A stretch of 35,350 nt of DNA from a virus. Under the pieces are notes generated by a model, which made no database searches, had not been told where the DNA came from, and saw only the letters and a list, made by a program, of their open reading frames with translations. Each line of letters begins with the position of its first letter. Position 1 is the stretch's first letter. A program made the position numbers and the translations under genes. Positions 1 to 35,350 of the stretch are shown in pieces. The stretch is from the IMG/VR virus record IMGVR_UViG_3300010370_000110, positions 1 through 35,350 of that record, one strand, 5' to 3'.

Positions 1-74
1 CCGCTTGCGCCGTACACGAGCATTTTTACACCGTTGGCAGACAAGCCGTCGGTGCGTTTCAGTTGAATAGCCAT
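1..74 (-). CDS. Sak4-like RecA-type ATPase, N-terminal part (cut by window edge)
   Basis: Start and first 24 codons of a recombination ATPase read leftward off the window. The ATG at 74-72 is preceded by a strong AGGAG at good spacing, which fixes the start. The peptide begins MAIQLKRTDGL and ends at the edge in LVYGASG, the opening of a Walker A loop (GxxGxGKT). The rest of the gene is at the right edge (34772-35350), where the reading resumes in ATLPSPVILSAEGG, a pattern typical of the phage Sak4 family. Sak4 proteins are single-domain RecA/Rad51-like ATPases that work with phage SSB in single-strand annealing and recombination. The GKT of the P-loop falls in the missing piece. First gene of the leftward operon. 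Confidence 0.85.
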   Translation of the reverse strand, partial: MAIQLKRTDGLSANGVKMLVYGAS

Positions 75-244
75 AAGGCTCCTATGTGTTATTGCTACGG
101 TCAGCACAATGCTGGTTGTAGCGTTAGTTGGCGGCACTTACCCGACCGCCTTAGGTTTTGGGACACACCGCGCAATCTGGATAAAATTCTTGGCGGAATT
201 CCAGACCACGCGGGCCTTTGCATTTGCATGGCCCCGAATAAGTT

Positions 245-293
245 GCTAACACCGGCGACACTTCCAGATTAGTTTTCCGGCACCAGTGTTAGC
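245..293. promoter_or_regulatory. Inverted repeat in the divergent control region
   Basis: GCTAACAC (245-252) and GTGTTAGC (286-293) are perfect 8-base inverted copies 33 bases apart. They lie between the leftward Sak4 gene and the rightward primase-helicase gene. Just downstream CCCCG (300-304) and CGGGG (316-320) can pair around an 11-base loop. The 75-384 stretch holds no convincing gene. A reading frame across 63-272 runs antisense over the Sak4 start and has no family resemblance. The placement suits an operator or attenuator for the two divergent operons. This role is inference. Confidence 0.35.
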
Positions 294-324
294 GTTTAGC
301 CCCGCCCATTGATTTCGGGGATGG

Positions 325-352
325 TTGTATTGTGGGGTTAGTCGCGTATCAT
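325..352 (+). promoter_or_regulatory. Candidate sigma70 promoter for the rightward operon
   Basis: TTGTAT (325-330) and TATCAT (347-352) are separated by 16 bases and lie 32 bases upstream of the primase-helicase ATG at 385. That gene also has a good AGAGGAG ribosome site at about 371-377. The hexamers match four of six and four to five of six consensus positions. This is a plausible but unproven promoter for the whole rightward early block. Confidence 0.35.
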
Positions 353-384
353 GTCAACACTTTTTCACCAGAGGAGTACACAAA

Positions 385-2388
385 ATGGCGGACTTGACGA
401 ATATTTTTGATGGGCCATGGTCACCACCGACACAAGTCTTTGATACACCTGAGAATCAATTGCGCGATGCGATCATCCGCGCAGGGCTTGAGCCTCCGGA
501 TTACATACAGATTGACGGTGCGTTGCATCGTTTCAAAAGCGGTACAAAAGGAACGCCAGGGCAGGGCGATAAGAGCGGCTGGTACATTGCTTTCAATGAC
601 GGTGTACCCGCTGGCCGTTTCGGGTGCTGGCGCGCAGGCCACGAGCAATCTTGGGTAGCTAATGTCGGACGCCAACTTACCGTTGCTGAACAAATGGCGC
701 AAACCAGACGTATGGCAGAAGCCAAAAGGATCAGAGATGAAGAACGCAAAAAACAACAGGAAACCGTAGCCGAAACCGTTGAAACGATATGGTCAAACGG
801 TCTCGGTGCGTCACCCGATCATCCATACTTACAAACCAAGGGAATCCAGCCACACGGCGCAAGAGTAGACAGCGCAGGGCGTCTTATGACGCCACTATAT
901 AGCGATGATGGCGCACTTTCATCACTCCAATACATAAACGATGTGGGGCGCAAGTTATTCCATACCGGTGGCGCTACTTCCGGTAAATTTTGGATCATTG
1001 GTGAGGTGGGGCACTCTTTATATATAGCTGAAGGTTACGCTACAGCGGCGACTATTTATGAGTGTACAGGTCAAGCGTGTGCAATCGCTTACAGCGCGTC
1101 GAATGTGGTTCACGTGGCGCGTTTTATGCGCGAACGGTACGGCATAGCGCAGAACATCATTATAGTCGGTGACAACGACGAATCAGGAACAGGTCAGAAA
1201 TACGCAGAACAAGCCGCTACAGAAATAGGTGCGCGGCTAGTGATCCCACCAATAATCGGTGATGCAAACGATTACGCGCAAGCTGGTCATGATTTGGCTG
1301 GTTTACTTAATCCACCATCCGATGATGATGAGTGGCTGATTCACGCGGATGAATTTAGCAATCAACCGGCCCCGATCAAATGGTTAGTGAAGGATTGGAT
1401 TCAGGATCAGGCTTTTATAATGGTTCATGGCCCTAGCGGAGGCGGTAAGACGTTTTTTGTGCTGGATATAGCTAACACCGTAGCGTCTGGATTAAGCGAA
1501 TGGAAAGGCCACAAAGTAACGCCAGGGACGGTTGTATACCTGGCAGGTGAAGGTCATCACGGTTTGCGTAGTCGTATCGCGGCGTGGAAACAATATAACC
1601 AAGTCAATCAGATGAATATGTATGTTAGTCGTCATGGGTGCGACTTAAATACATCAGAAGGGTATCACAAAGTATTAGAGTCTGTTAGAAAACTACCTGA
1701 AACTCCACGTTTAATAGTAATTGATACCTTGCACCGATTCCTAAAAGGCGATGAAAATTCGTCGGAAATTGCTAAAACCATGATTGATGCGTGTGGTTTG
1801 TTGATGCGTGAATTTAATACGTCAGTACTATTAGTACACCATACCGGAAAGGATGAAACCGCACAAAAAGATGGGCGCGGTTCATCGGCCTATCGTGGTG
1901 CTTTGGAAATAGCGATTAGCGTTGTACCCGCTACAGAGTCAACACCAATACAGATTATACAGCGCAAAGCCAAGGACTCAGAATTGGCACCCGACAAGCA
2001 TATGAGACTTGAGAAGGTGACTATTAACGGATGGTTTGATGAAGATAATGAACCAGTAACTAGCGTGGTTATGGTTGAGGATGATGCGCCGGTGAACAGC
2101 ACCAAAAAAAGCGCAAAACATACTAAAAACCTTAAAGTAATGGAACGCGCATGGTGGGCGAGTGGAACGGAAATCAGAATGGATTTACCTTATGTAACCC
2201 GTTCGGCTTTGCGTGACTTGTTGCGCCAGGATGGCAAGGCAGAACAAACTATTAAGAACGCTATGAACGCGAACAATGAAGGCAAAATGATAGCCTCAAT
2301 GTTGGCGGATGGCGTCATTGAATGCTACGAAAATGGCTTCATAGTCACAGATGAAGTTGAGGCATCCGCATGGCTTTTGGCAGTCTGA
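385..2388 (+). CDS. Toprim primase-helicase (bifunctional replication protein)
   Basis: A 667-residue replication protein. An N-terminal segment (residues about 40-90, rich in Gly/Trp/Phe) resembles the lead domain of phage Toprim primases. A charged linker follows at 100-135. The Toprim core has AEG near 215-217 and GDNDESG near 262-268. A RepA/DnaB-like ATPase follows, with Walker A GPSGGGKT at 349-356, a Walker B-like LIVIDTLHRF, and LLVHHTGK further on. The protein would prime and unwind phage DNA. No CHC2 zinc finger is visible. I chose the ATG at 385 over upstream non-ATG starts because AGAGGAG sits in front of it. A repeat cluster that may be the origin follows directly. Confidence 0.88.
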   Translation: MADLTNIFDGPWSPPTQVFDTPENQLRDAIIRAGLEPPDYIQIDGALHRFKSGTKGTPGQGDKSGWYIAFNDGVPAGRFGCWRAGHEQSWVANVGRQLTVAEQMAQTRRMAEAKRIRDEERKKQQETVAETVETIWSNGLGASPDHPYLQTKGIQPHGARVDSAGRLMTPLYSDDGALSSLQYINDVGRKLFHTGGATSGKFWIIGEVGHSLYIAEGYATAATIYECTGQACAIAYSASNVVHVARFMRERYGIAQNIIIVGDNDESGTGQKYAEQAATEIGARLVIPPIIGDANDYAQAGHDLAGLLNPPSDDDEWLIHADEFSNQPAPIKWLVKDWIQDQAFIMVHGPSGGGKTFFVLDIANTVASGLSEWKGHKVTPGTVVYLAGEGHHGLRSRIAAWKQYNQVNQMNMYVSRHGCDLNTSEGYHKVLESVRKLPETPRLIVIDTLHRFLKGDENSSEIAKTMIDACGLLMREFNTSVLLVHHTGKDETAQKDGRGSSAYRGALEIAISVVPATESTPIQIIQRKAKDSELAPDKHMRLEKVTINGWFDEDNEPVTSVVMVEDDAPVNSTKKSAKHTKNLKVMERAWWASGTEIRMDLPYVTRSALRDLLRQDGKAEQTIKNAMNANNEGKMIASMLADGVIECYENGFIVTDEVEASAWLLAV

Positions 2389-23863: not shown

Positions 23864-24291
23864 AAATCAACGACGCAGGGCTGGCGCTAATACGCCAGTT
23901 TGAAGGTTGTCGGCTGAAAGCATACAAGTGTCCCGCAGGCGTGTGGACTATTGGCTATGGATGGACACATGGCGTTAAACCTGGCGACCATTGGACGCAA
24001 GCACACGCTGAAGAAATGCTAATTAAAGGACTGGATCAATACGAAAATGCGGTTCAGTCGGCAATCGGTATGCACAAAACCACTGCCAATCAGTTCTCTG
24101 CTTTTGTTAGCATTTGTTACAACATCGGCGTGGGAAACTTTGTAAAATCATCTATGTTGCGTCATCACAAGGCCGGTGATTATGCAAAAGCCGCAGATGC
24201 GTTTCTTTTGTGGAACAAAGCTGGCGGCAAAGTTTTGAATGGTCTTATTAAACGGCGACAAGCCGAACGTTTGTTATATCTGGAGGACTAG
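23860..24291 (+). CDS. GH24 lysozyme (endolysin)
   Basis: A 143-residue phage lysozyme. The catalytic pattern is E15-x8-C24-x5-T30 (FEGCRLKAYKCPAGVWTIGYG region), the GH24 E-D/C-T triad in its Cys variant. TANQFSAFVSICYNIG and GLIKRRQAERLLYL are family hallmarks. There is no N-terminal signal or SAR anchor, so the protein should stay in the cytoplasm until the holin opens the membrane. It cuts the glycosidic bonds of peptidoglycan. Confidence 0.93.
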   Translation: MKINDAGLALIRQFEGCRLKAYKCPAGVWTIGYGWTHGVKPGDHWTQAHAEEMLIKGLDQYENAVQSAIGMHKTTANQFSAFVSICYNIGVGNFVKSSMLRHHKAGDYAKAADAFLLWNKAGGKVLNGLIKRRQAERLLYLED

Positions 24292-24294
24292 CTA

Positions 24295-24483
24295 GTGACT
24301 GATGAAAATTTGAAAATCATAGACACTAGCGAATCGCTTACAAAAGAAGAATTACAAGAATTGAAAAAACTAGCAGCTTTGTCAAAGTCTGCTAGAGTTT
24401 TCATGAGCATTATTTTTGCTATTGTTGTCTTTGTTGGTTTTGATAAATTATTTGAATGGTTTAAAAGTTCGCATAGTATCTAG
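24295..24483 (+). CDS. Small single-TM protein of the lysis cassette
   Basis: A 62-residue protein beginning with GTG three bases after the lysozyme stop. A charged helical N-terminus (ESLTKEELQELKKLAALSK) is followed by one membrane span (VFMSIIFAIVVFVGF) and a short amphipathic end. It could be a second holin, an antiholin or a spanin-like accessory. No lipobox is present. Its last 36 bases overlap the convergent gene on the other strand. Confidence 0.65.
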   Translation: MTDENLKIIDTSESLTKEELQELKKLAALSKSARVFMSIIFAIVVFVGFDKLFEWFKSSHSI

Positions 24484-24699
24484 CGTTGATGGCGGGACTG
24501 TTGGTGTTTCTTTAATGATCCATTGGTTGCCGTACTGATACGCTTTGATGTTTTGTTGGCCTGGCACATGTATGCTCGTCATGTTGCCGTATTGAGTTGC
24601 TTTCACACCGTTGTTGCAATTTGTTACATTAAATGTTGTGTAGCAATTGACTTGTGCTGTTGCGGTTATTGGTAATAGCAACATTAGTAGGTATTTCAT
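24448..24699 (-). CDS. Small exported protein with signal peptide
   Basis: An 83-residue protein with a clean signal peptide (MKYLLMLLLPITATAQ) and a likely cleavage after the AxA-type ATAQ. The mature part has two Cys (NCYTTFNVTNC) and repeated short motifs around QYGN. GAGGAATAACC lies before the ATG. It is the last gene of the leftward cluster. It would act in the periplasm or on the surface, perhaps in exclusion or lysis, but no family is recognised. It overlaps the lysis gene tail to tail. Confidence 0.65.
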   Translation of the reverse strand: MKYLLMLLLPITATAQVNCYTTFNVTNCNNGVKATQYGNMTSIHVPGQQNIKAYQYGNQWIIKETPTVPPSTLDTMRTFKPFK

Positions 24700-24701
24700 G
24701 G

Positions 24702-25040
24702 TTATTCCTCGTATGTGATTTCATGATAATCATCCGCATCTGGATGCGCTTCTTTGCACTCCCATTTTGTGGGGTGAGCGCCAATTCTTATGCCATCGCC
24801 AACCCGCGCAACCCAAATGGATTTGCCATTAGAGGCCATGAAAAGATCTAGTTCGTTTGGCTGGGCATCCGCGTAGACTTTGCCATCAATAGTCCATGAA
24901 TAAACTTTTTTTTCGGCAATTACTCCATACAAAACAAAATCATGGTCAACACTGAAATGAGTAAGTTGCTGAACAATATAACCTTCCCTTGTTACAACCT
25001 TCGCTCCGGCCAGAGCCGCTTCTAAGTTAAACGGTTTCAT
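24702..25040 (-). CDS. Conserved phage hypothetical protein (112 aa)
   Basis: A 112-residue protein opening MKPFNLEAALAGAKVVTREG, a start seen in many phage accessory proteins (a [FD]LExAxxGxxVxTRdG pattern), followed by beta strands with SWTIDGKVYA. A strong GGAGG four bases before the ATG fixes the start, which overlaps the upstream stop by one base (TAATG). Function unknown. Confidence 0.75.
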   Translation of the reverse strand: MKPFNLEAALAGAKVVTREGYIVQQLTHFSVDHDFVLYGVIAEKKVYSWTIDGKVYADAQPNELDLFMASNGKSIWVARVGDGIRIGAHPTKWECKEAHPDADDYHEITYEE

Positions 25041-25267
25041 TATTCCTCCCGATATTTTGCTATCGCGTTTCTGGCCACTGTTGCCGTTTCGCCCTGCGAT
25101 TCACGCAAATCAGCCGTGTATTCCAAGGCGCTAACTAATTCCTCAACAATGTCACTCCTGACGTATGTAAGTACGTCGGGCTTTTCCCCATCTTTGTTAT
25201 AGATAAATACCCTGTTTTTAGGTTTGTTTATTCTGTTACCTACTAGCTTACTTTGTTTTATTTTCAT
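25040..25267 (-). CDS. Small early protein, Ea22-like tail pattern
   Basis: A 75-residue basic protein (MKIKQSKLVGNRINKPKNRV), with a C-terminal helix ELVSALEYTADLRESQGETATVARNAIAKY. That last part recalls phage Ead/Ea22-like small proteins, with Leu-Ala helices and a YTADL-type motif. Start overlaps the upstream gene by four bases. No function can be assigned. Confidence 0.6.
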   Translation of the reverse strand: MKIKQSKLVGNRINKPKNRVFIYNKDGEKPDVLTYVRSDIVEELVSALEYTADLRESQGETATVARNAIAKYREE

Positions 25268-25422
25268 TGCGTTTCTGCCTTCTGAATGTGTTCAAGTTTT
25301 TCGTTGACTTGGGCTTCCATGTTTTCGATGTGCTTCCTGACGTTTTCCAGGGCAGAGAGCATTTCCGTCAGGGCCGAAATCTCCACCACGACTTTTTGCT
25401 CTAATCCGTATTCCGTTTGCAT
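25264..25422 (-). CDS. Small coiled-coil protein (52 aa)
   Basis: A 52-residue reading frame from ATG at 25422 to TGA at 25264: MQTEYGLEQKVVVEISALTE, then MLSALENVRKHIENMEAQV with heptad-like Leu/Ile/Met spacing, suggesting a short coiled coil. The stop overlaps the next start as ATGA, the coupling used across this operon. The reading frame on the opposite strand (25286-25507) is its shadow. Function unknown. Confidence 0.6.
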   Translation of the reverse strand: MQTEYGLEQKVVVEISALTEMLSALENVRKHIENMEAQVNEKLEHIQKAETQ

Positions 25423-25532
25423 AGGTCAATCACTCTCGGTTAAGGCCAGCACTAACGCGGCTGGCTTGCGATTCGTAGACAGCACTTTGTCTTTCAATAC
25501 CACTTAAAAAATAAGGCTGCCTACTAAATGGG

Positions 25533-25583
25533 TGCCGCCCCAGTGTTCGAAGCTCCCGTTAATAAAAATGGGTAAGGGCGGCA
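25533..25583. other. Inverted repeat in the gap after thyX
   Basis: TGCCGCCC (25533-25540) and GGGCGGCA (25576-25583) can pair across a 35-base loop just downstream of thyX on the minus strand. No U-run follows. The gap 25423-25591 otherwise holds only a possible 25-codon GTG frame (25426-25503, minus) without a ribosome site, which I do not accept as a gene. Confidence 0.35.
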
Positions 25584-25591
25584 TTGAAAAC

Positions 25592-26254
25592 TTAAGCCAT
25601 CAGCGCTTTCCAGCTAACAGGAAAAAGCTCTGCCATGTGTTTAGAGATTTCCTCTGCTACATCACGAGTTTCTTTCTGAGCATGTGGGTCTAGCCGCAAT
25701 TTGCAAACCCTAGCGAAGAAAACCAAACTACCTGTCCATATCCACGTTGTTTCAGAGCATATCGGTATGACTCCTCTGGCTTGCTCAGGACACACGCCTT
25801 TCAAGAGCAAGTCATCGTAGAGCGCCAAGCAAGCATCCATAGCCTTGTCTATCTGCTCTTGCATTGCAGAGTCAATCTGCACAATCTCATCAGCCGAGCC
25901 TTGCTTTACGTTTACAGCCGCTTTACGCCATGCTGACGGCACATCTAGCACTGACTGATCAGAAACGTATCGGCGGCTTACTTCGTTCACGACCCCGCCA
26001 ACCTGGTGCTTTGCAAGCTGTCTAGCCACATAAATTGGCATGGTGACTCTGAACTTGATCGCTGTGTGAGCAAACGGCGACCAATGTTTATGTCTTGCTA
26101 AATACTCAATCAGAATTTCATCCTTGTCATGCAATTTAGAACCATGCTCCCAATCATTCTCCCATTTCCAAGTAGACTCTTTGTCAAAGGAGACTCGTGC
26201 CGCGTTTACTACAGCCAAGTCATCGCCCATGTGATCTAATAATTCAACGTGCAT
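25592..26254 (-). CDS. thyX: Flavin-dependent thymidylate synthase ThyX
   Basis: A 220-residue ThyX, which makes dTMP from dUMP using FAD and methylene-tetrahydrofolate. Visible family parts: VVNAARVSFDKES near residues 15-27, YLARHKHWSPFAH (51-63), and the signature region KHQVGGVVNEVSRRY (82-96) in place of the usual RHRxxSxNExSxRY. The first Arg is Lys, the third residue is Gln, and one residue is inserted, a variant I associate with phage ThyX. I chose the ATG at 26254, preceded by GGAGG, instead of upstream starts that overlap the previous gene. It supplies thymidine for phage DNA. Confidence 0.88.
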   Translation of the reverse strand: MHVELLDHMGDDLAVVNAARVSFDKESTWKWENDWEHGSKLHDKDEILIEYLARHKHWSPFAHTAIKFRVTMPIYVARQLAKHQVGGVVNEVSRRYVSDQSVLDVPSAWRKAAVNVKQGSADEIVQIDSAMQEQIDKAMDACLALYDDLLLKGVCPEQARGVIPICSETTWIWTGSLVFFARVCKLRLDPHAQKETRDVAEEISKHMAELFPVSWKALMA

Positions 26255-26507
26255 TGCTATCAGCCTCCGTAAGCGCCTGTGAAACCGCGTAACGCATGAC
26301 AAAATGCCATGCTTTGATTGGTATGCTGCATTGATTTTCTTCCCATAATCGCCGGTATGATGGATATTTGATCCATCCGCTAGGTATTACACATCGCACA
26401 TAAAAATCATCTTTTGAAACGCAAATCAAATTTTTGCGAATGGTGACATCAACGCCATGAATTTTATTTAATTCGTACAGAACAATAGCTGTGGCTTTAT
26501 TTGTCAT
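26244..26507 (-). CDS. Hypothetical protein (87 aa)
   Basis: An 87-residue protein: ATAIVLYELNKIHGVDVTIRK, a beta segment with Tyr/Trp (WIKYPSYRRLWEEN), and a helical C-terminus. It overlaps both neighbours by 11 bases and carries thyX's GGAGG site in its last codons. I do not recognise a family. Confidence 0.6.
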   Translation of the reverse strand: MTNKATAIVLYELNKIHGVDVTIRKNLICVSKDDFYVRCVIPSGWIKYPSYRRLWEENQCSIPIKAWHFVMRYAVSQALTEADSNAR

Positions 26508-26898
26508 TGCTTATTAGCCCATGAGCAGCCTTAGCAAAAGCGGCTGAAATATCACTAAATAACACATGCAATACATATGTATTGTCTGGCGGTTTTTTGG
26601 TTGTTGATTGCGCCACAATATCAACAGCTTTTTTTGCTGGCTGAACCATTGCACCAGAGTTTGCCGACTTAAAATCCCACACCATACGACCATCGTCGCC
26701 AGTGCGACTTATCAACTGATTCTTGTGATCGCGCATATAACAAAGCCGTGAACTTATCAACCGACGCGCTGCATTTGGTAGCATGTGGGCGTATGCTTTC
26801 TGTTTCACCAGTCGCATATAAATTTCATTTGTGCTGGCCGGTCGCGGCATGTTTTCCAGCGTAGCAGTCAAAAGGTCATATATTGTTGTTTGAGCCAT
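26497..26898 (-). CDS. Putative winged-helix protein (133 aa)
   Basis: A 133-residue protein. Residues 1-75 (TTIYDLLTATLENMPRPAST, NEIYMRLVKQKAY, RRLISSRLCYMRD, GRMVWDFK) have the helix-helix-helix-wing spacing of small DNA-binding domains. A Lys-rich linker and a C-terminal helix follow. AGGA precedes the ATG. It could be an early-gene regulator. The wHTH reading is by eye. Confidence 0.55.
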   Translation of the reverse strand: MAQTTIYDLLTATLENMPRPASTNEIYMRLVKQKAYAHMLPNAARRLISSRLCYMRDHKNQLISRTGDDGRMVWDFKSANSGAMVQPAKKAVDIVAQSTTKKPPDNTYVLHVLFSDISAAFAKAAHGLISNDK

Positions 26899-27026
26899 TT
26901 TTTTTCCTGTTGGTTAAATAAAGTGCCAAGCCCACACATTCCGTGACTCACACGGCGCTCTGTCTTGGCTCCGGCGATTGTGCAAACTCCACCGGCTGAT
27001 TCATTCCATGCGGTTGAGACAGTCAA
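26868..27026 (-). CDS. Possible small protein with TTG start
   Basis: A 52-codon frame from TTG at 27026-27024, overlapping the stop of the upstream gene by three bases: MTVSTAWNESAGG, CTIAGAKTERRVSHGMCGLG, then NQQEKKWLKQQY. The residue mix looks protein-like, and the overlap arrangement suits coupling. The start codon is weak, though, and the last 31 bases overlap the next gene. An antisense frame (26965-27153) competes on the other strand. I give it as likely but unproven. Confidence 0.4.
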   Translation of the reverse strand: MTVSTAWNESAGGVCTIAGAKTERRVSHGMCGLGTLFNQQEKKWLKQQYMTF

Positions 27027-27202
27027 GGCTCCATCTGCCGAGACTTTTGTAACAAACAATCAAGTCTGTTCAATGTGCGCTCAATCTGCCACCAAAGAAC
27101 TCGGCGGCGAATGGCGCGGAATAAAGGTGCGGGTTTTATGGCCTTGGGTATGACAAGGCCATAAGTGTCCAGAATGTCGCCTTTCATCGGCAGGCGACTC
27201 AT
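27023..27202 (-). CDS. Small basic protein (59 aa)
   Basis: A 59-residue protein from ATG at 27202 (overlapping the upstream stop as ATGA): MSRLPMKGDILDTYGLVIP, then a basic amphipathic helix LFRAIRRRVLWWQIERTLNRL. The helix could bind membrane or nucleic acid. An in-frame GTG at 27214 is the alternative start. Function unknown. Confidence 0.55.
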   Translation of the reverse strand: MSRLPMKGDILDTYGLVIPKAIKPAPLFRAIRRRVLWWQIERTLNRLDCLLQKSRQMEP

Positions 27203-27285
27203 TGCGTCGCCCACAAAACTAGAATTACCCCAAACGATCCACCTACAATTAGGTGGACGGCGGCTGTAAGTAAAATGTCTTTCAT
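27199..27285 (-). CDS. Tiny membrane peptide (28 aa)
   Basis: A 28-residue frame, MKDILLTAAVHLIVGGSFGV then ILVLWATQ: one nearly complete membrane span. AGGGG lies nine bases before the ATG, which is four bases after the previous stop, and the end couples to the next gene by ATGA. An 8-pair hairpin (TCCACCTA-CAAT-TAGGTGGA, 27238-27257) lies inside the frame. It may be a toxin-like or accessory membrane peptide; this is inference. Confidence 0.5.
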   Translation of the reverse strand: MKDILLTAAVHLIVGGSFGVILVLWATQ

Positions 27286-27289
27286 TGTC

Positions 27290-27460
27290 TTAACCCCTCA
27301 GTGTTTTTATGATTGCCAAATCCTTATGGATTCGGTCAACGTCATGCACTCTAGCGTTCATGATATAGCCAGCCATGGCGAAGCCAAAGCATCCTACAAA
27401 AATGGATGCGGCGATTGCCGCAATTAGAATTATGATAACCATATCAATCACGGTTATCAT
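27290..27460 (-). CDS. Small single-TM protein
   Basis: A 56-residue membrane protein: MITVIDMVIIILIAAIAASI, then FVGCFGFAMAGYIMNARV and a charged cytoplasmic-type end (HDVDRIHKDLAIIKTLRG). I use ATG 27460; ATG 27442 (50 aa), which starts one base after the upstream stop, is equally possible. It is one of two small membrane proteins in a row. Function unknown. Confidence 0.55.
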   Translation of the reverse strand: MITVIDMVIIILIAAIAASIFVGCFGFAMAGYIMNARVHDVDRIHKDLAIIKTLRG

Positions 27461-27743
27461 AAATGTGGAATGATACAGCCTCAAACGAAGGCTTTTCGCC
27501 TTCTGGCGCTCTGTTGGCGTTCTCAAAAACGCCAATCAAAAACGTGCCGCACAACCGCATGGCGGCGGCGGGATGGACTATTACAACCCCGTCAAATGGG
27601 CCGTCATCGTGGCCCATGACGTCGGTGACGTTGACGCTAAAAGCGTCACGGTCTCCAATTTGAACCAAAGTAATGTTCTTTTCAGCTGCCAATTGCATTT
27701 GGCCTTGGGTGGGAAGGTGGCGGCTGATGAATGCAAATCTCAT
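27444..27743 (-). CDS. Conserved phage hypothetical protein (99 aa)
   Basis: A 99-residue alpha/beta protein: FAFISRHLPTQGQMQLAAEK, then LVQIGDRDAFSV, GVVIVHPAAAMRL, and FENANRAPEGEKPSFEAV. The alternating strands and helices suggest a Rossmann-like fold, and the GVVxVHPAAAMRL and FENANRAPEG parts look strongly conserved. I know similar phage proteins but no function. GGAGAAT precedes the ATG. Confidence 0.7.
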   Translation of the reverse strand: MRFAFISRHLPTQGQMQLAAEKNITLVQIGDRDAFSVNVTDVMGHDDGPFDGVVIVHPAAAMRLCGTFLIGVFENANRAPEGEKPSFEAVSFHIYDNRD

Positions 27744-27783
27744 GTTATTCTCCGGTTAGTGCGCCGTCCTTGGCGCAAATTAT

Positions 27784-27972
27784 TTAATTTATTTCTAATG
27801 GCAGGTTTACAGACTGGGAAAAATCCCAGTCAGCGAATTCCCGAGTGCCTTGCCACTCGGCATTAACGATGCCATCCCATAACACCTCTTCGCCACTGGC
27901 GAGTCGAATGGTAGCGCAATTGTCGACTACAACTGCGCCCTTTAACAGCGCGAAATCGTTAATTTTTCTCAT
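27784..27972 (-). CDS. Small hypothetical protein (62 aa)
   Basis: A 62-residue acidic protein (MRKINDFALLKGAVVVDNCA, SGEEVLWDGIVNAEWQG). The ATG at 27972 has GGGAG about ten bases before it and is preferred to an upstream non-ATG start at 28029. It is the first gene behind the candidate promoter at 28026-28054. Function unknown. Confidence 0.6.
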   Translation of the reverse strand: MRKINDFALLKGAVVVDNCATIRLASGEEVLWDGIVNAEWQGTREFADWDFSQSVNLPLEIN

Positions 27973-28025
27973 TTGAGTCAGTCTCCCTGTATTTGCTTCA
28001 GCGGTATTGCCTCGGCTTGGTGAGT

Positions 28026-28054
28026 ACAATACAACTACACCAAAGTGTCGTCAA
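28026..28054 (-). promoter_or_regulatory. Candidate sigma70 promoter with embedded palindrome
   Basis: On the minus strand TTGACG (28054-28049) and TATTGT (28031-28026) are 17 bases apart, a good sigma70 match. The spacer contains the inverted repeat ACAC-CAAA-GTGT (28037-28048), a possible operator. It lies in the 93-base gap between the zinc-ribbon/HTH gene and the small early cluster and would drive 27972 to 24448. The HTH protein encoded just upstream could bind it; that link is inference. Confidence 0.55.
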
Positions 28055-28065
28055 CAACTTTCTTG

Positions 28066-28407
28066 CTAATTTCTCCACCAGGAACGAAAATTCTTTATCG
28101 CGCTGATCGTTGTGCGCGAAACCTCAAATTTACGCCCTACTTCGGCGCAGCTTATGCCGTCATCTAACAAACCGCGAATCAAATCCACGTCATGCGCGGT
28201 TAACTTGGCGTGATGATGTGTTTCGCCGTATGTCGGCATCAACCGTTGTTCACGCTCAAACGGTAGTTGGCGTTGCGCTTTAATTTGACGTACTTGGATC
28301 AACTTGCATTGCTTGCACCAGGATTGTAAATATCTTCCCTGTTTTTGTGTATAAAAGTCTGTAACCGGCTTAACTGTCCGGCATTTGGTGCATTGTTTTG
28401 AGTCCAT
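28066..28407 (-). CDS. Zinc-ribbon plus HTH protein
   Basis: A 113-residue protein. The N-terminal part has two CxxC knuckles (CTKC at 6-9 and CKQC near 31-34) in the VKPVTDFY...GRYLQSWCKQCK layout. The C-terminal part (about 68-110) is a helix-turn-helix: LTAHDVDLIRGLLDDGISCA, EVGRKFEVSRTTISAIKNF. Related domains occur with HNH-type endonucleases, but no nuclease residues appear here. AAGGTGG precedes the ATG at 28407. The first 109 bases overlap the DEAD helicase in another frame. Confidence 0.75.
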   Translation of the reverse strand: MDSKQCTKCRTVKPVTDFYTQKQGRYLQSWCKQCKLIQVRQIKAQRQLPFEREQRLMPTYGETHHHAKLTAHDVDLIRGLLDDGISCAEVGRKFEVSRTTISAIKNFRSWWRN

Positions 28408-29975
28408 GTTCTGTTCACCACCTTGTTATATTTTCCGTCCCGCTTGTACTTAATTGTTGTTGGCGGAATTCCTTTATTCAAGTTGCCAGCTTGGCGAATC
28501 AGGTCATCATCTAAACTCGCGTCAGCCTGTTGTGCGATCGTGACTATTTCTAAGCGTGACTTATGGCCAGCATAGCCATCATGAAGCACAGGAAAAAATT
28601 CAGTTATTGGCTGAACGTCCATCCGGTCACTGTAGTAACGCACTGATAGCATGTGCTTACCACTCGCTTTACTAATGTACTTCTGCCAGTGCCAGTCAAT
28701 GACGGTCATCTCAGTGGCTTCTAGCCCCATAATGTCGGCATCACTTAACCTCAGTTCTTTCTTTTCCTTAATCGGAAAAACCGCATCGCATGACGGGCAT
28801 TTGCTCGTTGAAATGGCGACAATCTCACCGCATTGTTCGCACGTTTTAGTTGGCGCTTGCCCGTCGCCTTGCTTTGCCTTATTTGGCGGTTCTACGGCGG
28901 TTATAGGCCCGTGTTGCTTCACTACACCGGCAAAATCCAGCACTAAACAATGATTCGTGTGTGACTTAGGACGCAAACCACGGCCTGCCATTTGCACATA
29001 TAAGCCTGGTGACATGGTGGGACGCAGCATCGCTATTAGGTCAATGTCGGGATAGTCAAACCCAGTCGTCAGAACATTAGCGTTAGTTAACGCTTGAATC
29101 TTGCCAGCCTTGAAATCTAACAAAATGCGTTCGCGCTCGGCTTTTGGAGTGGCTCCTGTCACGCATTCGGCAATTATCCCTTGCGCCTTAAGTTCGCTGG
29201 CGATGTGTTTCGCGTGTTGCACGCCAGCGCAAAATAATAGCCATGCTTTGCGATCACCCGCCAGTGTTTTGATTTCATTCACTACGCGCTGGTTAATTGC
29301 GTCAACGTCGACGGCCTGTTGTAACTCGCGCTCGATGTACTCACCGCCGCGTTTATGTACGCCTGTAATGTCCAATAGAATTTGGGTAACTTTTGATCGT
29401 AGCGGCATCAAATAACCCTTGTTTATCAACTCTTCAATTGTCACAGGTTCAATCAATTCGTCAAAAATAGCAGGTTTTTCAATAATATAGCCATGTCCCA
29501 ATCTGTATGGGCTAGCGGTCAATCCTATCACCCTCACATTAGGATTTGTCCGATAGATGTCCGATAGAAATGTCCGATAGCCGCCTTCATCGTTGTGATT
29601 GACAAGGTGACATTCATCTATAATCACTAAATCGACATGCCCGACTTGATCCGCGTGCTTTCTGATTGACTGAATCCCTGCAAAAGTAATGGGTTCTCCC
29701 AATATCTTCTGCCCCATACCGGCTGAATATATGCCCATAGGCGCATTAGGCCAGTGCTGACGCATCTTTTGCGCGTTCTGTTCTATCAATTCCTTAACAT
29801 GCGTCAGCATCAAAATGCGGGTTTCAGGCCACGATTGCAGCGCATCTTTACATAAAGCGGCTATAACGTGACTCTTACCGGCTCCTGTTGGTAAAACAAG
29901 GCAGGGATTACCTGCATTATGGCTTAACCATGCGTACAGTTGGTTTATGGATCGTTGTTGGTAATCCCTTAACAT
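28299..29975 (-). CDS. DEAD/DEAH-box superfamily 2 helicase with zinc ribbon
   Basis: A 558-residue SF2 helicase. The Q-like LRDYQQ opening is followed by Walker A PTGAGKS (29-35), DECH (120-123), TAS (153-155) and motif VI QMAGRGLRP (329-337). A four-Cys zinc ribbon C380-x2-C383...C394-x2-C397 follows the core. Such phage helicases remodel DNA or RNA during replication and recombination. The ATG at 29975 is preferred over 29987; it follows a GGGGTGG stretch. The end overlaps the next gene by 109 bases. Confidence 0.9.
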   Translation of the reverse strand: MLRDYQQRSINQLYAWLSHNAGNPCLVLPTGAGKSHVIAALCKDALQSWPETRILMLTHVKELIEQNAQKMRQHWPNAPMGIYSAGMGQKILGEPITFAGIQSIRKHADQVGHVDLVIIDECHLVNHNDEGGYRTFLSDIYRTNPNVRVIGLTASPYRLGHGYIIEKPAIFDELIEPVTIEELINKGYLMPLRSKVTQILLDITGVHKRGGEYIERELQQAVDVDAINQRVVNEIKTLAGDRKAWLLFCAGVQHAKHIASELKAQGIIAECVTGATPKAERERILLDFKAGKIQALTNANVLTTGFDYPDIDLIAMLRPTMSPGLYVQMAGRGLRPKSHTNHCLVLDFAGVVKQHGPITAVEPPNKAKQGDGQAPTKTCEQCGEIVAISTSKCPSCDAVFPIKEKKELRLSDADIMGLEATEMTVIDWHWQKYISKASGKHMLSVRYYSDRMDVQPITEFFPVLHDGYAGHKSRLEIVTIAQQADASLDDDLIRQAGNLNKGIPPTTIKYKRDGKYNKVVNRTWTQNNAPNAGQLSRLQTFIHKNREDIYNPGASNAS

Positions 29976-30562
29976 ATACCACCCCATTGTGCGGCCATTG
30001 CGTTCGCTATACCTTGATACGTTTCACTACGCTTTTTCCATCTATCTTTTGACGGCGCTAATTTGTTTTGCCCACTCGCTGTTTGATTGGCTCGACGTGT
30101 TTTGTTGTCACCATGCAGCATATTAGTTGGTTGTAACGGTGGAAGATTTTTCAACCATAGACAGGTTTTTTTGCTTGCGTCATCCCCAAACCACCAAGGC
30201 TGAATGATTTGATCCGGTTTGCGAATACGGCTTGATATAACAGAAACAGGATTTTCTAAAGCAATCTTAGGTATAGGTGCATTTAACAAGGTTTGCACAA
30301 AAATCAGTGCATCTTCTGTCAGCTGCGGGTCACGCAATCCTCGTGTAGTCCAGTGCATGCCTGACACGGACAAGTAAGTGCAAGGCGGATGAAATACAGC
30401 CAAATCCCACCCGTCATCAAGAAGTGACACAACATCCCCCTGAATGTGATAATTAGAACCATCATCCGGAGTCAATAAATCACAAGACCAAGCGTCGTGT
30501 CCAATATCCCTAAACGCTTGCCTCAATTTGCCTGAATACTCACAGCCAACTAACACCTTCAT
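29969..30562 (-). CDS. Small cytosine-5 DNA methyltransferase-like protein
   Basis: A 197-residue protein with the core of C5-cytosine methylases: a GCEYSGKLRQAFRD motif I-like start (6-19), the catalytic PPC (59-61) and ENP (103-105). It is short (full C5 methylases exceed 300) because the target recognition domain is reduced, as in a family common in phage genomes. The family name says DNA cytosine methylation; activity is not proven. It lies between the Cas4-like nuclease (ATGA overlap) and the helicase. Confidence 0.75.
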   Translation of the reverse strand: MKVLVGCEYSGKLRQAFRDIGHDAWSCDLLTPDDGSNYHIQGDVVSLLDDGWDLAVFHPPCTYLSVSGMHWTTRGLRDPQLTEDALIFVQTLLNAPIPKIALENPVSVISSRIRKPDQIIQPWWFGDDASKKTCLWLKNLPPLQPTNMLHGDNKTRRANQTASGQNKLAPSKDRWKKRSETYQGIANAMAAQWGGIC

Positions 30563-31575
30563 CCAACTACCCTCCCGCTCATTACGTCACGAATTGCCTC
30601 GCTAGTATTATCAGGATTAGCGCATGCGCTAGGATTTGCAAGTATTTCACGGCTTGAAAACACAAACGCATCAGGTTCACCGTTACGCACTGGTTTTCCG
30701 TCAATTTCAAACGTCAATTCATTCTCGTTGTGATCTATCATTTTCCATGGCACAAGGTCAGGATGCAGTAAATGAGACTCGCAACCTGTGCGCTGAAACT
30801 CGACAGGAATATCAGCATCATCATGTTTTGCACATGTCCATGTGCTTTTGTCTGTTGCGGTTGAATGGCAGCACGTCTTGCAATTGACTTCCTTTGTTAT
30901 GTGGCTTTTATGGCAAAACTCATGCGCCGCGCACATTTTGCAAATATACCAACTAGGATCAACGCTCATTGGTTCCGGCATACGGTCAGATTGCACCAAA
31001 CGTTTGCCGCGATCTACATACTTTTGTGCTATTTCCTTATCAAGTCTGACTCGTTCTGTATAGATTTCGTCATTATCTTTGCATATCGCATAATACAACG
31101 CTCTGTCAATCTTTAAGCCAAGCATATAAAGTTGCATCTGTATGTAATGTTGCGGCTTAGATTTTTCAACGCCATTCTTTTGCAAATCATCAAATGACTT
31201 TTTGCTGTGCGTCTTGCACTCTAACACGTGATACTTCAATGGCGCTTCCGGTACGCCAGCGGTAATAATGCCGTCAACGCTTCCTGAGATGTGCCAGCCG
31301 AAGTCAACAGATGATTGGCGATCACTGACTTTTACGCCAACGGCACGCAAGTCTTGCAGGATGGTTGATTCCTCTACCTGACCGCGCCTAAACAGTCTCA
31401 AAATACGTCCGTCGAATTTTTCAATCACGGCCCACCGGAATGACAGCCACAGATAGCGGTCGCATGGATGTCCCAGTATCGAACAGCCCATGTGCTGGCG
31501 CGGCGGTTCTTGCGTATCGGCATGATGCTGGTCAATCAAACCGGCCAGCGTGATTTCTGGTTCAGGTATTTTCAT
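30559..31575 (-). CDS. Cas4/RecB-like PD-(D/E)XK nuclease with Fe-S cysteines
   Basis: A 338-residue nuclease. The active site is visible as GSVDG (D101), LECKT (E119-x-K121) and QMQLY (Q146...Y150), the RecB motifs. Cysteines C38, C212, C215 and C221 fit the four-Cys Fe-S layout of Cas4 and AddB (one N-terminal, three C-terminal). A further Cys cluster (C232, C235, C236, C248, C265) may bind zinc. With Sak4 and the SSB-like protein it would provide the exonuclease for single-strand recombination. GAGGA precedes the ATG. Confidence 0.82.
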   Translation of the reverse strand: MKIPEPEITLAGLIDQHHADTQEPPRQHMGCSILGHPCDRYLWLSFRWAVIEKFDGRILRLFRRGQVEESTILQDLRAVGVKVSDRQSSVDFGWHISGSVDGIITAGVPEAPLKYHVLECKTHSKKSFDDLQKNGVEKSKPQHYIQMQLYMLGLKIDRALYYAICKDNDEIYTERVRLDKEIAQKYVDRGKRLVQSDRMPEPMSVDPSWYICKMCAAHEFCHKSHITKEVNCKTCCHSTATDKSTWTCAKHDDADIPVEFQRTGCESHLLHPDLVPWKMIDHNENELTFEIDGKPVRNGEPDAFVFSSREILANPSACANPDNTSEAIRDVMSGRVVG

Positions 31576-33860
31576 TAGAATAAATCCTCTTGTTTTTCTT
31601 TTAACTTCACTGAATCAAGATTCTTGCACGCTATGTCAAAATAGGATTTTTTCAATTCAGCCCCAACAAACTTGCGCCCCATGTTTAATGCAACATAGCC
31701 CTCGCTACCAATTCCGGTAAAAGGCGAAAATATCAAATCGCTAGGGTTAGACCACAACTCAATACAACGCTCAATCACGTCCAACTGCAATGGGCAAATA
31801 TGGCGTTCTTCGTGTTTTTCTTTTGCTAATTTGTAATTCAGCACATTGGTTTGATCTATGTCAAACCACACCGGCGAAGCGTAACGCTGCCAAACAGCAA
31901 TCGAATACAATCTTTGTCTTTCGGTTTCACTTCTAGCACGCCCCCAATCTTTTGTTTGTGGCGCGTTATAGCTTGATCCAATGTAATCAAAAAACCGTTC
32001 TTTGCCTCGCGTCACTGCTTCCCAATCTTCTTCGTCTGCCCATTTCCTCATGACGATTATGTAGTCAGCCATGCCCTGACGCGATGCGCTGGAGTCTTTG
32101 CACAACTGCTTGTACAAAAGCCCATGGTTTTTAGTGCGCTGCATTTCAATAACAGGGTCCTTCCAAATGGTCACACGGCTATGATATTGCCAGCCCTTGG
32201 ATTCATACATTTTTATAATTTCACCTGGAAAGTCTCGCAAACCGGCGGCACCATCGCGGCCCTTGTACATCGGCAAGTCTTTGCAATGTATGGCCGTCAA
32301 TCGTCCTGGTTTTGTAATCCTGTGCAATTCTTCGGCAAGGTAGCTATAATGCTTCATAAATTGACCGTCATCGGTACTGTTGCCCATATCGTATTCTGAA
32401 TCTGAATAGATATATAGATTAGAAAACGGCGGCGAATACACGCTAAACCCAATCGAATTGCTGTCAATCATTTTGGCAACATGAACGCAATCGCCATGAT
32501 GCAAAGTCCAATTGTCTGATTGAACAGTTTCAAAGTATGCAATGTCGTTCATTTGAGTTTCCCTTTTGTGATAATTGGCAATAGCTTCAACCATCGCTTC
32601 TTTCATTTCGTTATGCTTTTGTTCTTTTGCTTTTATAATCGCAAGAATTGAACTTTCAGAATCAGCGGCCATGACGTAACTGTTAACTTCTTTAGTTTGC
32701 CCAAACCTGTAACATCTACGAATTGCTTGGTAATAGTTTTCGTAAGAGTACGATAAACCAACAAAAGCCATATTCCTACAATGCTGGAAATTCAAACCCA
32801 TGCCAGCGATTGACGGTTTAGTAATCAATACTCTTGTTTTTCCGTCAATAAACGCCTGTAATGATTGTTCTTTTTTGTCAATCGTATCCGATCCGCGCAC
32901 GTCAACGGCATCAATAATCAAACCTTTCAACGCATCGGCTTCATAATTTGTATTGCACCACACTAGCCACGATTCATCTGAATTGTTGACCAATTCAGCC
33001 ACCTTAACGGCGCGTTTATCAACCGTTAAACGTCCTTCTTTGTGTACGCTAGTCGCGTTTATCGTTACGTTCCTGAACAATTCCCCTTCGGCTGGCGGCA
33101 AGTCATCTGTGTTAATTCTAATAAATTCTTGATTCAATGGCGGCAAATTGTAGGCGCTTCCGTCATAGCCTAAATCAGCCGGATTGCTAATGCACATTGC
33201 CCATGACGCCAGCCATTCCCAAAACTTAGTAGCCGCGTGTGGTTTTAACACATACGCTCCGGCTTCCATCGTGTCGTTTTGAAAAAAACGCATAATCATT
33301 TCATTGCTTGGCATGATCCCCAAAAATTCCGCATGATTGCCAAGTTCTAAGTAATCATTGGGCGATGGTGTAGCAGTGCAAGCTAATCGGTACGGCACTG
33401 GCTGGCACAACTCAATTAATGCCCGCTTGGTTTTGCCCATGTAGCTTTTCAAGATGCTGGATTCATCAAGCACTATTCCGCCAAAAGTAGAAATGTCAAA
33501 GTTATCAAGCATTTCATAATTGGTAATTATTATGTTTTTTTGTATTTGTTGTTGGTTTCGACAGTATTGAATGTCAATGCCAAATTTATGCGCTTCGTTG
33601 ACTGTTTGTAACGAGATGCACAACGGCGCAACAATTAACACACGTTGCCCAGTATGTCGCACAACCTCATCGGCCCACGACGTTTGCATGATTGTTTTGC
33701 CTAGCCCAGTGTCTGCAAAAATAGCAGCGCGGCCCTTTTTGACGGCCCACTCAGTAACATATTTTTGAAAATCAAACAGGTTGTTATTTAACGCAATTGG
33801 CGCGTGTCCAATTGTGATTTCATGTTGTCTTTTTTGTTGTATAAAATCATCGTACTGCAT
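31575..33860 (-). CDS. SNF2-type helicase fused to N4/N6 DNA methyltransferase
   Basis: A 761-residue fusion. The helicase half has Walker A ADTGLGKT (49-56), DESS (132-135) as motif II, TATPSPND (162-169) and RRCYRFGQ (381-388), the SNF2-like motif VI. The methylase half (about 450-761) has SPPF (476-479) and the SAM site FSPFTGIGSEG (711-721), catalytic motif first, so the beta-class order. It should modify adenine-N6 or cytosine-N4. No recognition domain or restriction nuclease is fused. Length and intact motifs argue against an assembly artefact. A candidate promoter lies just upstream. Confidence 0.88.
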   Translation of the reverse strand: MQYDDFIQQKRQHEITIGHAPIALNNNLFDFQKYVTEWAVKKGRAAIFADTGLGKTIMQTSWADEVVRHTGQRVLIVAPLCISLQTVNEAHKFGIDIQYCRNQQQIQKNIIITNYEMLDNFDISTFGGIVLDESSILKSYMGKTKRALIELCQPVPYRLACTATPSPNDYLELGNHAEFLGIMPSNEMIMRFFQNDTMEAGAYVLKPHAATKFWEWLASWAMCISNPADLGYDGSAYNLPPLNQEFIRINTDDLPPAEGELFRNVTINATSVHKEGRLTVDKRAVKVAELVNNSDESWLVWCNTNYEADALKGLIIDAVDVRGSDTIDKKEQSLQAFIDGKTRVLITKPSIAGMGLNFQHCRNMAFVGLSYSYENYYQAIRRCYRFGQTKEVNSYVMAADSESSILAIIKAKEQKHNEMKEAMVEAIANYHKRETQMNDIAYFETVQSDNWTLHHGDCVHVAKMIDSNSIGFSVYSPPFSNLYIYSDSEYDMGNSTDDGQFMKHYSYLAEELHRITKPGRLTAIHCKDLPMYKGRDGAAGLRDFPGEIIKMYESKGWQYHSRVTIWKDPVIEMQRTKNHGLLYKQLCKDSSASRQGMADYIIVMRKWADEEDWEAVTRGKERFFDYIGSSYNAPQTKDWGRARSETERQRLYSIAVWQRYASPVWFDIDQTNVLNYKLAKEKHEERHICPLQLDVIERCIELWSNPSDLIFSPFTGIGSEGYVALNMGRKFVGAELKKSYFDIACKNLDSVKLKEKQEDLF

Positions 33861-33870
33861 GTTCTCACCC

Positions 33871-33899
33871 TATATAAAAGCCGTCCTTGGCTATGTTGA
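33871..33899 (-). promoter_or_regulatory. Candidate internal promoter before the helicase-methylase gene
   Basis: On the minus strand TCAACA (33899-33894) and TATATA (33876-33871) are 17 bases apart in the 44-base gap before the fusion gene. The ATG at 33860 has GGGTGAG in front. It would allow the modification genes to be expressed apart from Sak4. Confidence 0.4.
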
Positions 33900-33904
33900 T
33901 TATG

Positions 33905-34384
33905 TTACTTCTTAGCCCAAGGCGGTGCTGATGTGCTGGCGGCTTGTGATGGCGGACTGGTCGGCATCGCAGGACGCGGTATAGCGCTACCTTCTATCGC
34001 TTTCCATGCCCGAATGTCGTTCCCTGGCCCGTATTGCTCAGATTGCGTAACCTGAACCTTAATGCTCAGTTTACCGCCGATAAAGTCATCAGTGTCACTG
34101 AGTCGTGACAGGCCAATGGCTCTCATAATGTCACCCAGTTGCTGGCGTCCTATTTCTTCGGCCTTCGGATTGGCGTTCCGGATGTTTATGTTGCCAAACA
34201 CGTAACGGCCCGCATGGGTCGGCCCAAGCACTTCGTACTTGAGCGCAATCATCTTGCCGCCGCTTTTAGTCGGCCTGATTTCAGCCGAATTTATTGAAAC
34301 CATGTACCAACCCGCCGGAAGAGGATCAAATGATGGTTGGCTCGTTGGTAAACTGTCAAGGTCAAAAGATTCATCAAGTAACAT
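33905..34384 (-). CDS. DUF669 SSB-like protein
   Basis: A 159-residue protein of the DUF669 family: PLPAGWYMVSINSAEIRPTK, GGKMIALKYEVLGPTHAGR, NINIRNANPKAEEIGRQQLG. An OB-like core is followed by a Pro/Ser-rich tail ending PPWAKK. DUF669 proteins accompany phage Sak4-type ATPases and act like single-strand DNA-binding proteins. The ATG has AGGAG in front. Confidence 0.85.
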   Translation of the reverse strand: MLLDESFDLDSLPTSQPSFDPLPAGWYMVSINSAEIRPTKSGGKMIALKYEVLGPTHAGRYVFGNINIRNANPKAEEIGRQQLGDIMRAIGLSRLSDTDDFIGGKLSIKVQVTQSEQYGPGNDIRAWKAIEGSAIPRPAMPTSPPSQAASTSAPPWAKK

Positions 34385-34388
34385 GGTT

Positions 34389-34772
34389 CTACTCCTTAAT
34401 TGTAATGGTGAAAGACGGACGCCCTGGTGTTGTTGTAATAGCGTCTAGCAGGGGATCAGTGATGGAATGGTCAGCGGCTTTCCATGCTGACATTGAGAGT
34501 TCAGGTTTCCACCTAAACAGTGTGGCGAGATGATCCGCCAAGCCATGCTCTGCGGCTATCTCAAGAAGCCGCTCGTCATCTATTTTGCGGTTCATCCTGC
34601 AAACCGCCTTAATAACGATGATTCCTTCCTTGTGCGTTACGGTTCCTTCCTCATCTTCTTGAATCCGCATGGCCTTAGCAAGATCATCTTCTATAGCACG
34701 TCTTTTCTGAGTTGCGGCCTTTTCGCTGGCCTTAGCGATAAGCCATTCCTGGCTCAATTTTTCTATACTCAT
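34389..34772 (-). CDS. Conserved protein of the Sak4 operon (127 aa)
   Basis: A 127-residue protein: coiled-coil-like N-terminus (LSQEWLIAKASEKAATQKRR), then IIVIKAVCRMNRKIDDERL and FRWKPELSMSAWKAAD. This recurring phage family sits between Sak4 and DUF669 genes; its role is unknown. I chose ATG 34772, which overlaps the Sak4 stop (TAATG) with GGTGGG before it, over a longer upstream start. Confidence 0.75.
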   Translation of the reverse strand: MSIEKLSQEWLIAKASEKAATQKRRAIEDDLAKAMRIQEDEEGTVTHKEGIIVIKAVCRMNRKIDDERLLEIAAEHGLADHLATLFRWKPELSMSAWKAADHSITDPLLDAITTTPGRPSFTITIKE

Positions 34773-35350
34773 TATTTCCCACCTATCTTGGTTATAATGT
34801 CGTTCAAATTTGGCGCTTCCCAAGCTTCTAAACGGCCCGATCTATCCTTAGCCGTCCACATTCCATCGCTGTCACACATGAACGCCCGCTGTGTATTCCC
34901 GTCAGCGTCGCGCTCAACACGCAGCGCCAGCACTTCATCAAAGAAATAAGGCAGTTGCTGCCCTAACTTCTGACCAGGCATAGACGGAGCATAAAGCATG
35001 CGCCCCATCTCATCTTGGCTTTTCTCAACTTTAGCCGTCATAAGCACATGCTTACCAGGCAGGTCCCTGAAAGCCCTAATCAGGTCCGTCATTTGCTCTT
35101 GCATCGCGCCATAAGCTTGGCGCGGGTCCTTCGTGGCCTTCTTTTCGGTATTCAGGCACACCTCGGCAATTTCAGAAATGCTGTCGAGCGCCACCGATTC
35201 AAAACTAGTGGCCTCAGATGATGATGTAAGCCATGTGTAGGCTTCCATCAGGTCGCTCATTGAAGTGATTTCAATAAACGGAATGTCGGCCCCAGCCAGT
35301 GAGAGCAAGCCGCCCTCGGCAGAGAGAATGACAGGACTCGGCAGAGTGGC
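34772..35350 (-). CDS. Sak4-like RecA-type ATPase, body (cut by window edge)
   Basis: 192 residues of the protein that starts at 74-1. The reading is open from the edge: ATLPSPVILSAEGGLLSL, then a Walker B-like SVALDSISE, a KHVLMTAKV strand with downstream GR, and ends NDIITKIGGK. The part directly after the edge continues the P-loop helix. The full protein would be about 224 residues, normal for Sak4. A TTG near 35308 gives an artificial start and should not be used. It heads the leftward recombination operon. Confidence 0.85.
   Translation of the reverse strand, partial: ATLPSPVILSAEGGLLSLAGADIPFIEITSMSDLMEAYTWLTSSSEATSFESVALDSISEIAEVCLNTEKKATKDPRQAYGAMQEQMTDLIRAFRDLPGKHVLMTAKVEKSQDEMGRMLYAPSMPGQKLGQQLPYFFDEVLALRVERDADGNTQRAFMCDSDGMWTAKDRSGRLEAWEAPNLNDIITKIGGK

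Follow-up and report, generated by a model that had tools for sequence, protein, structure and literature searches.

The viral contig IMGVR_UViG_3300010370_000110, whose 35,350 bases form the window analysed here, carries primase-helicase, terminase, portal, head and tail genes on the plus strand of its left part. Its right end is a minus-strand operon with the gene order Sak4, DUF7173, single-strand DNA-binding protein (SSB), SNF2-methylase fusion, Cas4 exonuclease, C5-like methyltransferase and RadD-like helicase (Table 1). The operon probably corresponds to a phage recombination and replication backbone (Sak4, DUF7173, SSB, Cas4 and RadD-like) with two independent methyltransferase genes inserted at gene boundaries, where they would mark DNA against restriction. 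A preliminary description of the region had singled out a helicase-methyltransferase fusion beside a Cas4-like nuclease and a second methylase, coupled with Sak4 and SSB. All three genes are indeed encoded there, on the minus strand, in a series of overlapping open reading frames (ORFs) with Sak4 and SSB lying upstream. The gene list given was correct but did not include the RadD-like helicase downstream.

The fusion gene (31575-33860, minus strand) encodes a protein of 761 amino acids (aa). Its SNF2/superfamily 2 (SF2) half matches the Pfam profiles Helicase_C (4.6e-11) and SNF2-rel_dom (4e-6) and retains intact motifs (GLGKT at 52, DESS at 132, TATP at 162, AGMGLN, and RRCYRFGQ at 381). The C-terminal half matches N6_N4_Mtase and carries SPPF at 476 ahead of FSPFTGIGS at 711, which is the beta-class order (motif IV before motif I). 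An AlphaFold2 model of the fusion (mean predicted local distance difference test score, pLDDT, of 84) is matched by Foldseek to SNF2 remodellers with E-values down to 5e-19. Sequence-profile matches include the beta-class methylases 2zie, MboIIA and CcrM and a DNA cytosine-N4 methyltransferase. The motifs, the PF01555 match and the model all agree with the earlier identification of an SNF2-like helicase joined to a beta-class N4/N6 methylase. SPPF is found in 189 of 192 relatives, and no motif was found in the remaining three. Serine in this motif IV position is usual for N4-cytosine methylases. The SPPF motif therefore suggests N4-cytosine as the target base, N6-adenine also being possible. 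The domain search found no nuclease domain in the fusion.

The adjacent exonuclease conserves D101, E119xK121, QxQxY (146-150) and an iron-sulphur-type CxxCx5C motif (212-221). These residues and the match to PHROG 1990 bear out its identification as an Fe-S PD-(D/E)XK nuclease. Its match to Cas4 in PADLOC is weak (6.5e-4) and that to the phage exonuclease family far stronger (Table 1). The C5-like protein displays core features of C5 cytosine methyltransferases, namely the fold, the catalytic PPC cysteine and the EN motif; C61 of PPC and E103-N104 are invariant in 34 sequences. Its model (pLDDT 85) is matched by Foldseek to M.HaeIII (best hit) and DNMT3 C5 methylases (best E-value 8e-6) and, together with the PHROG 757 match, is in keeping with the C5 methylase-like identity proposed for it. 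The protein has no Pfam match, and sequence-profile searches of the PDB with the C5-like and Cas4 alignments returned no match. The PHROG 757 family is common in phages, with 476 matching phage records. Members such as Burkholderia phage Bcep1 gp12 and cyanophage P-SSP7 gp12 are homologous to the C5-like protein over the full length but lie in unrelated neighbourhoods, for example among head genes in Bcep1.

The genes of the operon are closely packed. ORFs overlap or lie at most 4 bases apart, except that 44 bases separate SSB from the fusion. A single base is common to the fusion and Cas4 ORFs (TAATG), and those of Cas4 and the C5-like protein overlap by 4 nucleotides (nt). The overlap between the C5-like and RadD ORFs is 7 nt with the RadD start at 29975, an ATG that agrees with the start in relatives, and 19 nt with the mechanical ORF start at 29987.

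Table 1. Genes and domains of the minus-strand operon at the right end of the window
Feature	Position	Strand	Evidence
Sak4-like RecA-fold single-strand annealing protein	34772..35350	-	PHROG 124 (3.6e-48), AAA_24 (9.3e-19); N-terminus cut by the record end
DUF7173/PHROG 2480 protein, constant backbone member	34389..34823	-	Pfam (4.1e-19); equivalent position in related loci
DUF669-type phage SSB	33905..34384	-	PF05037 (1.8e-13), PHROG 6015 SSB (9e-22)
SNF2/SWI2 ATPase half of the fusion, residues 1-440	32541..33860	-	Pfam and PHROG matches, motifs, Foldseek to SNF2 remodellers
Beta-class N4/N6 DNA methylase half of the fusion, residues 441-761	31575..32540	-	PF01555 (3.2e-19); motif IV SPPF
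Cas4-domain (Fe-S PD-(D/E)XK) recombination exonuclease, 338 aa	30559..31575	-	PHROG 1990 (1.6e-93); catalytic and Cys residues conserved
Small C5-methylase-fold orphan methyltransferase, 197 aa	29969..30562	-	PHROG 757 (6.7e-64); model matches M.HaeIII/DNMT3 folds
RadD-like SF2 helicase, last backbone gene	28299..29975	-	NCBIfam RadD (4.5e-92, below its cut-off), ResIII (1.5e-21)

The recombination backbone and its two slots

The backbone was surveyed in 80 IMG/VR loci retrieved with the Cas4 exonuclease (numbered with the prefix L). The order Sak4-DUF7173-SSB-Cas4-RadD is constant: it is complete in 56 of the 80, the others being cut by contig ends apart from one ORF-start artefact. SSB directly adjoins Cas4 in 62 of 71 loci and Cas4 directly adjoins RadD in 30 of 73. 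The window itself contains Sak4, SSB, Cas4 and RadD in the order of this phage recombination module. The Cas4 nuclease is thus a member of a widespread backbone, usually without any gene between it and SSB, and the gene-order survey of phage loci largely places the arrangement within an ordinary replication module. The same Sak4-SSB-Cas4-helicase order occurs in Idiomarinaceae phage 1N2-2, Salicola phage CGphi29 and Alteromonas phage XX1924, but their slot 1, as the SSB/Cas4 boundary is called below, does not contain the fusion. It is occupied by other genes in 1N2-2 and by a solo N6_N4 methylase in CGphi29, while in XX1924 the methylase and SNF2 genes form a split pair that lies downstream of the backbone. 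Sak4 with a cognate SSB is among the subjects studied in phage HK620 (PMC5928155).

In the window, slot 1 carries the fusion as cargo, and slot 2, the boundary between Cas4 and RadD, carries the small C5-type orphan methylase. Slot 1 is occupied by the fusion in relatives of the window and in L073 and L116; L077 starts inside the fusion. The fusions of L073 and L116 share only 47-49% identity with that of the window and group with fusions from loci that do not possess the backbone module, from which it follows that the slot was filled more than once. Among close relatives, whose Cas4 DNA is 89-91% identical to that of the window, L040 and L095 do not contain the fusion. In L040, Cas4 follows SSB immediately; the switch occurs at the start codon, upstream of which the leader ACATAGCCAAGGACGGCTTTTA is preserved.

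Slot 2 is equally variable. The small C5-type gene is found there in the window, L003-L007 and L040, whereas the gene in L002 is an unrelated C5 methylase of the full type that matches PF00145, and the slot is empty in L008-L010, L022 and L026. More distant loci carry, among others, further C5 methylases (PF00145), N6_N4 methylases, and HNH and endonuclease VII genes. The close relatives therefore constitute a natural experiment, with nearly the same backbone and different methylases in the same slots, in which methylase swapping by phages to follow host restriction is directly testable.

Synonymous divergence (dS) is 0.19-0.38 for the fusion, 0.95-2.14 for Sak4, 0.49-1.06 for SSB and 0.37-0.82 for Cas4 and RadD. 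The lower values suggest that the fusion spread later than its Sak4 and SSB flanks. The ratio of nonsynonymous to synonymous divergence (dN/dS) is 0.02-0.03 for the SNF2 half and 0.01-0.05 for the methylase half. Taken with its absence from relatives and its low dS, these ratios indicate that the fusion is mobile yet kept functional.

Two further observations concern these loci. A gene pair identified by eye as ParB-like and PAPS-reductase-like was seen in both slots (slot 1 of L083, 4062-6393; slot 2 of L108, 1326-3664). The Cas4 gene of L095 (6956-8838) is split by about 760-900 bases, both pieces still resembling the Cas4 of the window; the interruption could be an intron, an intein or another insertion.

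The SNF2-methylase pair in other phages

Of the 380 phage records matched by the fusion, 304 align over 80% or more of the query length. Confirmed relatives number at least 594 in IMG/VR and at least 208 in GTDB genomes, the latter in contigs from many phyla. The collected set comprises 141 fused and 51 split-adjacent SNF2/methylase pairs, although some of the split pairs may be inteins or sequencing errors. Over a FastTree phylogeny of 178 sequences the fused or split state changed about 22 times, at least 16 of these changes being forced by supported branches. Neighbours that fuse and separate so often provide good evidence for cooperation between the two halves. The pair, with its nearly universal SPPF, is the only constant unit across loci. 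In 121 dereplicated SNF2-methylase loci the most recurrent neighbours, RadD-type helicases, occur 11 times, followed by two C5-methylase clusters (9 and 7) and the Cas4 family (4). The fusion also occurs with quite different neighbours and without the backbone module, as in L019, between primosomal and terminase genes, and in L015, by RecE and Erf genes.

That phages couple SNF2 ATPases to methylases is already known in general: a "DNA methylase-helicase dyad", widespread as one polypeptide or as neighbouring genes, has been described and is proposed to act against restriction by a type III-like mechanism (PMC5512222). The window agrees with this description in combining an SNF2 ATPase with intact motifs and a methylase in a single polypeptide. 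It differs in that the methylases detailed in that paper are gamma-class adenine methylases of polyvalent proteins, while the present methylase belongs to the beta class, has SPPF and comes after the helicase. Some phage records are already annotated as "DNA helicase/methylase", among them genes of Mycobacterium and Arthrobacter phages (e.g. BodEinwohner17 gp70), Synechococcus phage S-CBS3 gp40 and Flavobacterium phage FCV-3. They show nearly full-length homology to the fusion and the same domain order, but lie in other genomic neighbourhoods and are roughly 28-55% identical. The literature examined contained no functional study of these annotated genes and no experimental study of the SNF2-methylase pair. 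Because phages and prophages across many bacterial phyla commonly carry the pair, testing it biochemically would shed light on hundreds of annotated genes.

Possible roles of the inserted methylases

The role of both methylases is most likely self-modification against host restriction. The backbone would resect, anneal and recombine replicating phage DNA, and the methylases would mark this DNA, block its cleavage by host restriction enzymes and be exchanged as the restriction repertoire of hosts shifts. Within the fusion, the SNF2 half is predicted to translocate on double-stranded DNA, carrying or delivering the methylase, so that methylation may be motor-assisted. More tentatively, the pair could represent a widespread class of motor-driven orphan methylases without a nuclease, repeatedly fused and split and inserted into recombination modules, in which SNF2 translocation would let a beta-class SPPF methylase, possibly specific for N4-cytosine, modify phage DNA processively or only while it is replicating or recombining.

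The preliminary description had raised the possibility of self-modification, which is retained here, and also a concerted action of all the parts, which is not supported. As a restriction-like or superinfection-exclusion system, the fusion would mark self DNA and the Cas4-like nuclease would cut unmarked DNA, aided by the SNF2 motor and the second methylase. Translocase, methylase and nuclease lie side by side in overlapping ORFs, their list of parts is like that of restriction-modification and DISARM-type systems, and PADLOC returns weak matches to methylases and SNF2 helicases. However, the nuclease belongs to a family of phage recombination exonucleases found beside Sak4 and SSB, most relatives keep it without the fusion, and it stands beside the SNF2-methylase pair in only the four loci mentioned above. 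The independent gain and loss of the fusion and of the C5-like gene in close relatives largely refutes such a system, which we regard as highly improbable. Membership of the type I, type III or ISP restriction-modification systems was rejected on the lack of a nuclease domain in the fusion and the rarity of its Cas4 neighbour. DISARM was also rejected: among the best 25 PADLOC rows for each of six operon proteins there is no match to drmA, drmB or drmC. The SNF2 half has a weak match to DrmD. The SNF2 half and the methylase belong together, and the nuclease and the C5-type methylase are merely adjacent; this separation prevents a gene neighbourhood from being mistaken for a new defence system.

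The fusion might instead be primarily a replication or recombination factor, its motor clearing or remodelling DNA at phage forks and its methyl marks on phage DNA serving in the timing of replication, in mismatch repair or in packaging, not in protection. It lies inside the recombination module, DnaB, SSB, RecT, NinG and RadD genes are among its recurrent neighbours elsewhere, both halves are under strong purifying selection and slot 1 was filled at least twice. We consider this unlikely, as close relatives that share the backbone (L040 and L095) dispense with the fusion, which is patchy in its distribution and horizontally mobile. Orphan phage methylases with a similar distribution are usually explained by restriction evasion, as proposed for the frequent gain and loss of a different, actinophage methylase family (PMC9957025). 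The fusion is not a member of that family: ShiLan gp65 shares with it only a short methylase stretch (E-value 1e-5). An action like that of phage P1 DarB, in which the protein would be packaged in the virion, injected and active on incoming DNA, involves the same kind of SNF2-methylase coupling, and DarB protects in cis (PMC5512222). It nevertheless appears very unlikely here. DarB and the polyvalent subtype have a gamma-class NPP(Y/F) methylase N-terminal to the helicase together with LPD36; the SPPF motif, the beta order and the C-terminal position of the methylase exclude the fusion from this subtype. Moreover, two domains take up all 761 aa, leaving no room for an extra one, and the gene lies with replication genes and not with virion genes.

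Several points weigh against the reading of a backbone with two independent anti-restriction cargoes. Because the fusion entered the SSB/Cas4 slot on more than one occasion and also adjoins replication and recombination genes in other loci, it may have some functional connection to the backbone. The lower dS of the fusion could partly be due to constraint on synonymous sites, and it differs little from that of Cas4 and RadD. The C5-like protein does not reach the length of known C5 methylases and has ENP in place of ENV, and its 197 aa contain neither a PF00145 match nor a recognisable target-recognition domain; it may be inactive or act differently.

Other features of the contig

A megablast search of positions 24000-35350 of the window against phage records gave no match. 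The promoter scan remained at chance level (17 found, 16.0 expected), while terminator-like sites exceeded those in shuffled sequences (19 against 10.0, standard deviation 3.4). The 12-base hairpin-forming sequence GCCAAGGACGGC is present in two identical copies on the minus strand (33880-33891 and 27763-27774), each 19 bases 5' of a start codon, that of the fusion and that of an ORF starting at 27743. Two exact copies compare with 0.21 expected when up to one mismatch is allowed. The same sequence stands ahead of Cas4 in L040, and it is possibly a 5' leader element.

The ends of the record (window 1-2388 and 34772-35350) fall between primase-helicase and Sak4, which are divergent neighbours in L032, L035, L036 and L038. 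The contig probably represents a circularly permuted genome, nearly complete and opened within sak4. Downstream of the operon, a ThyX-type thymidylate synthase gene (25592-26302) is far more divergent than the operon, with a DNA identity of about 69-73% among close relatives.

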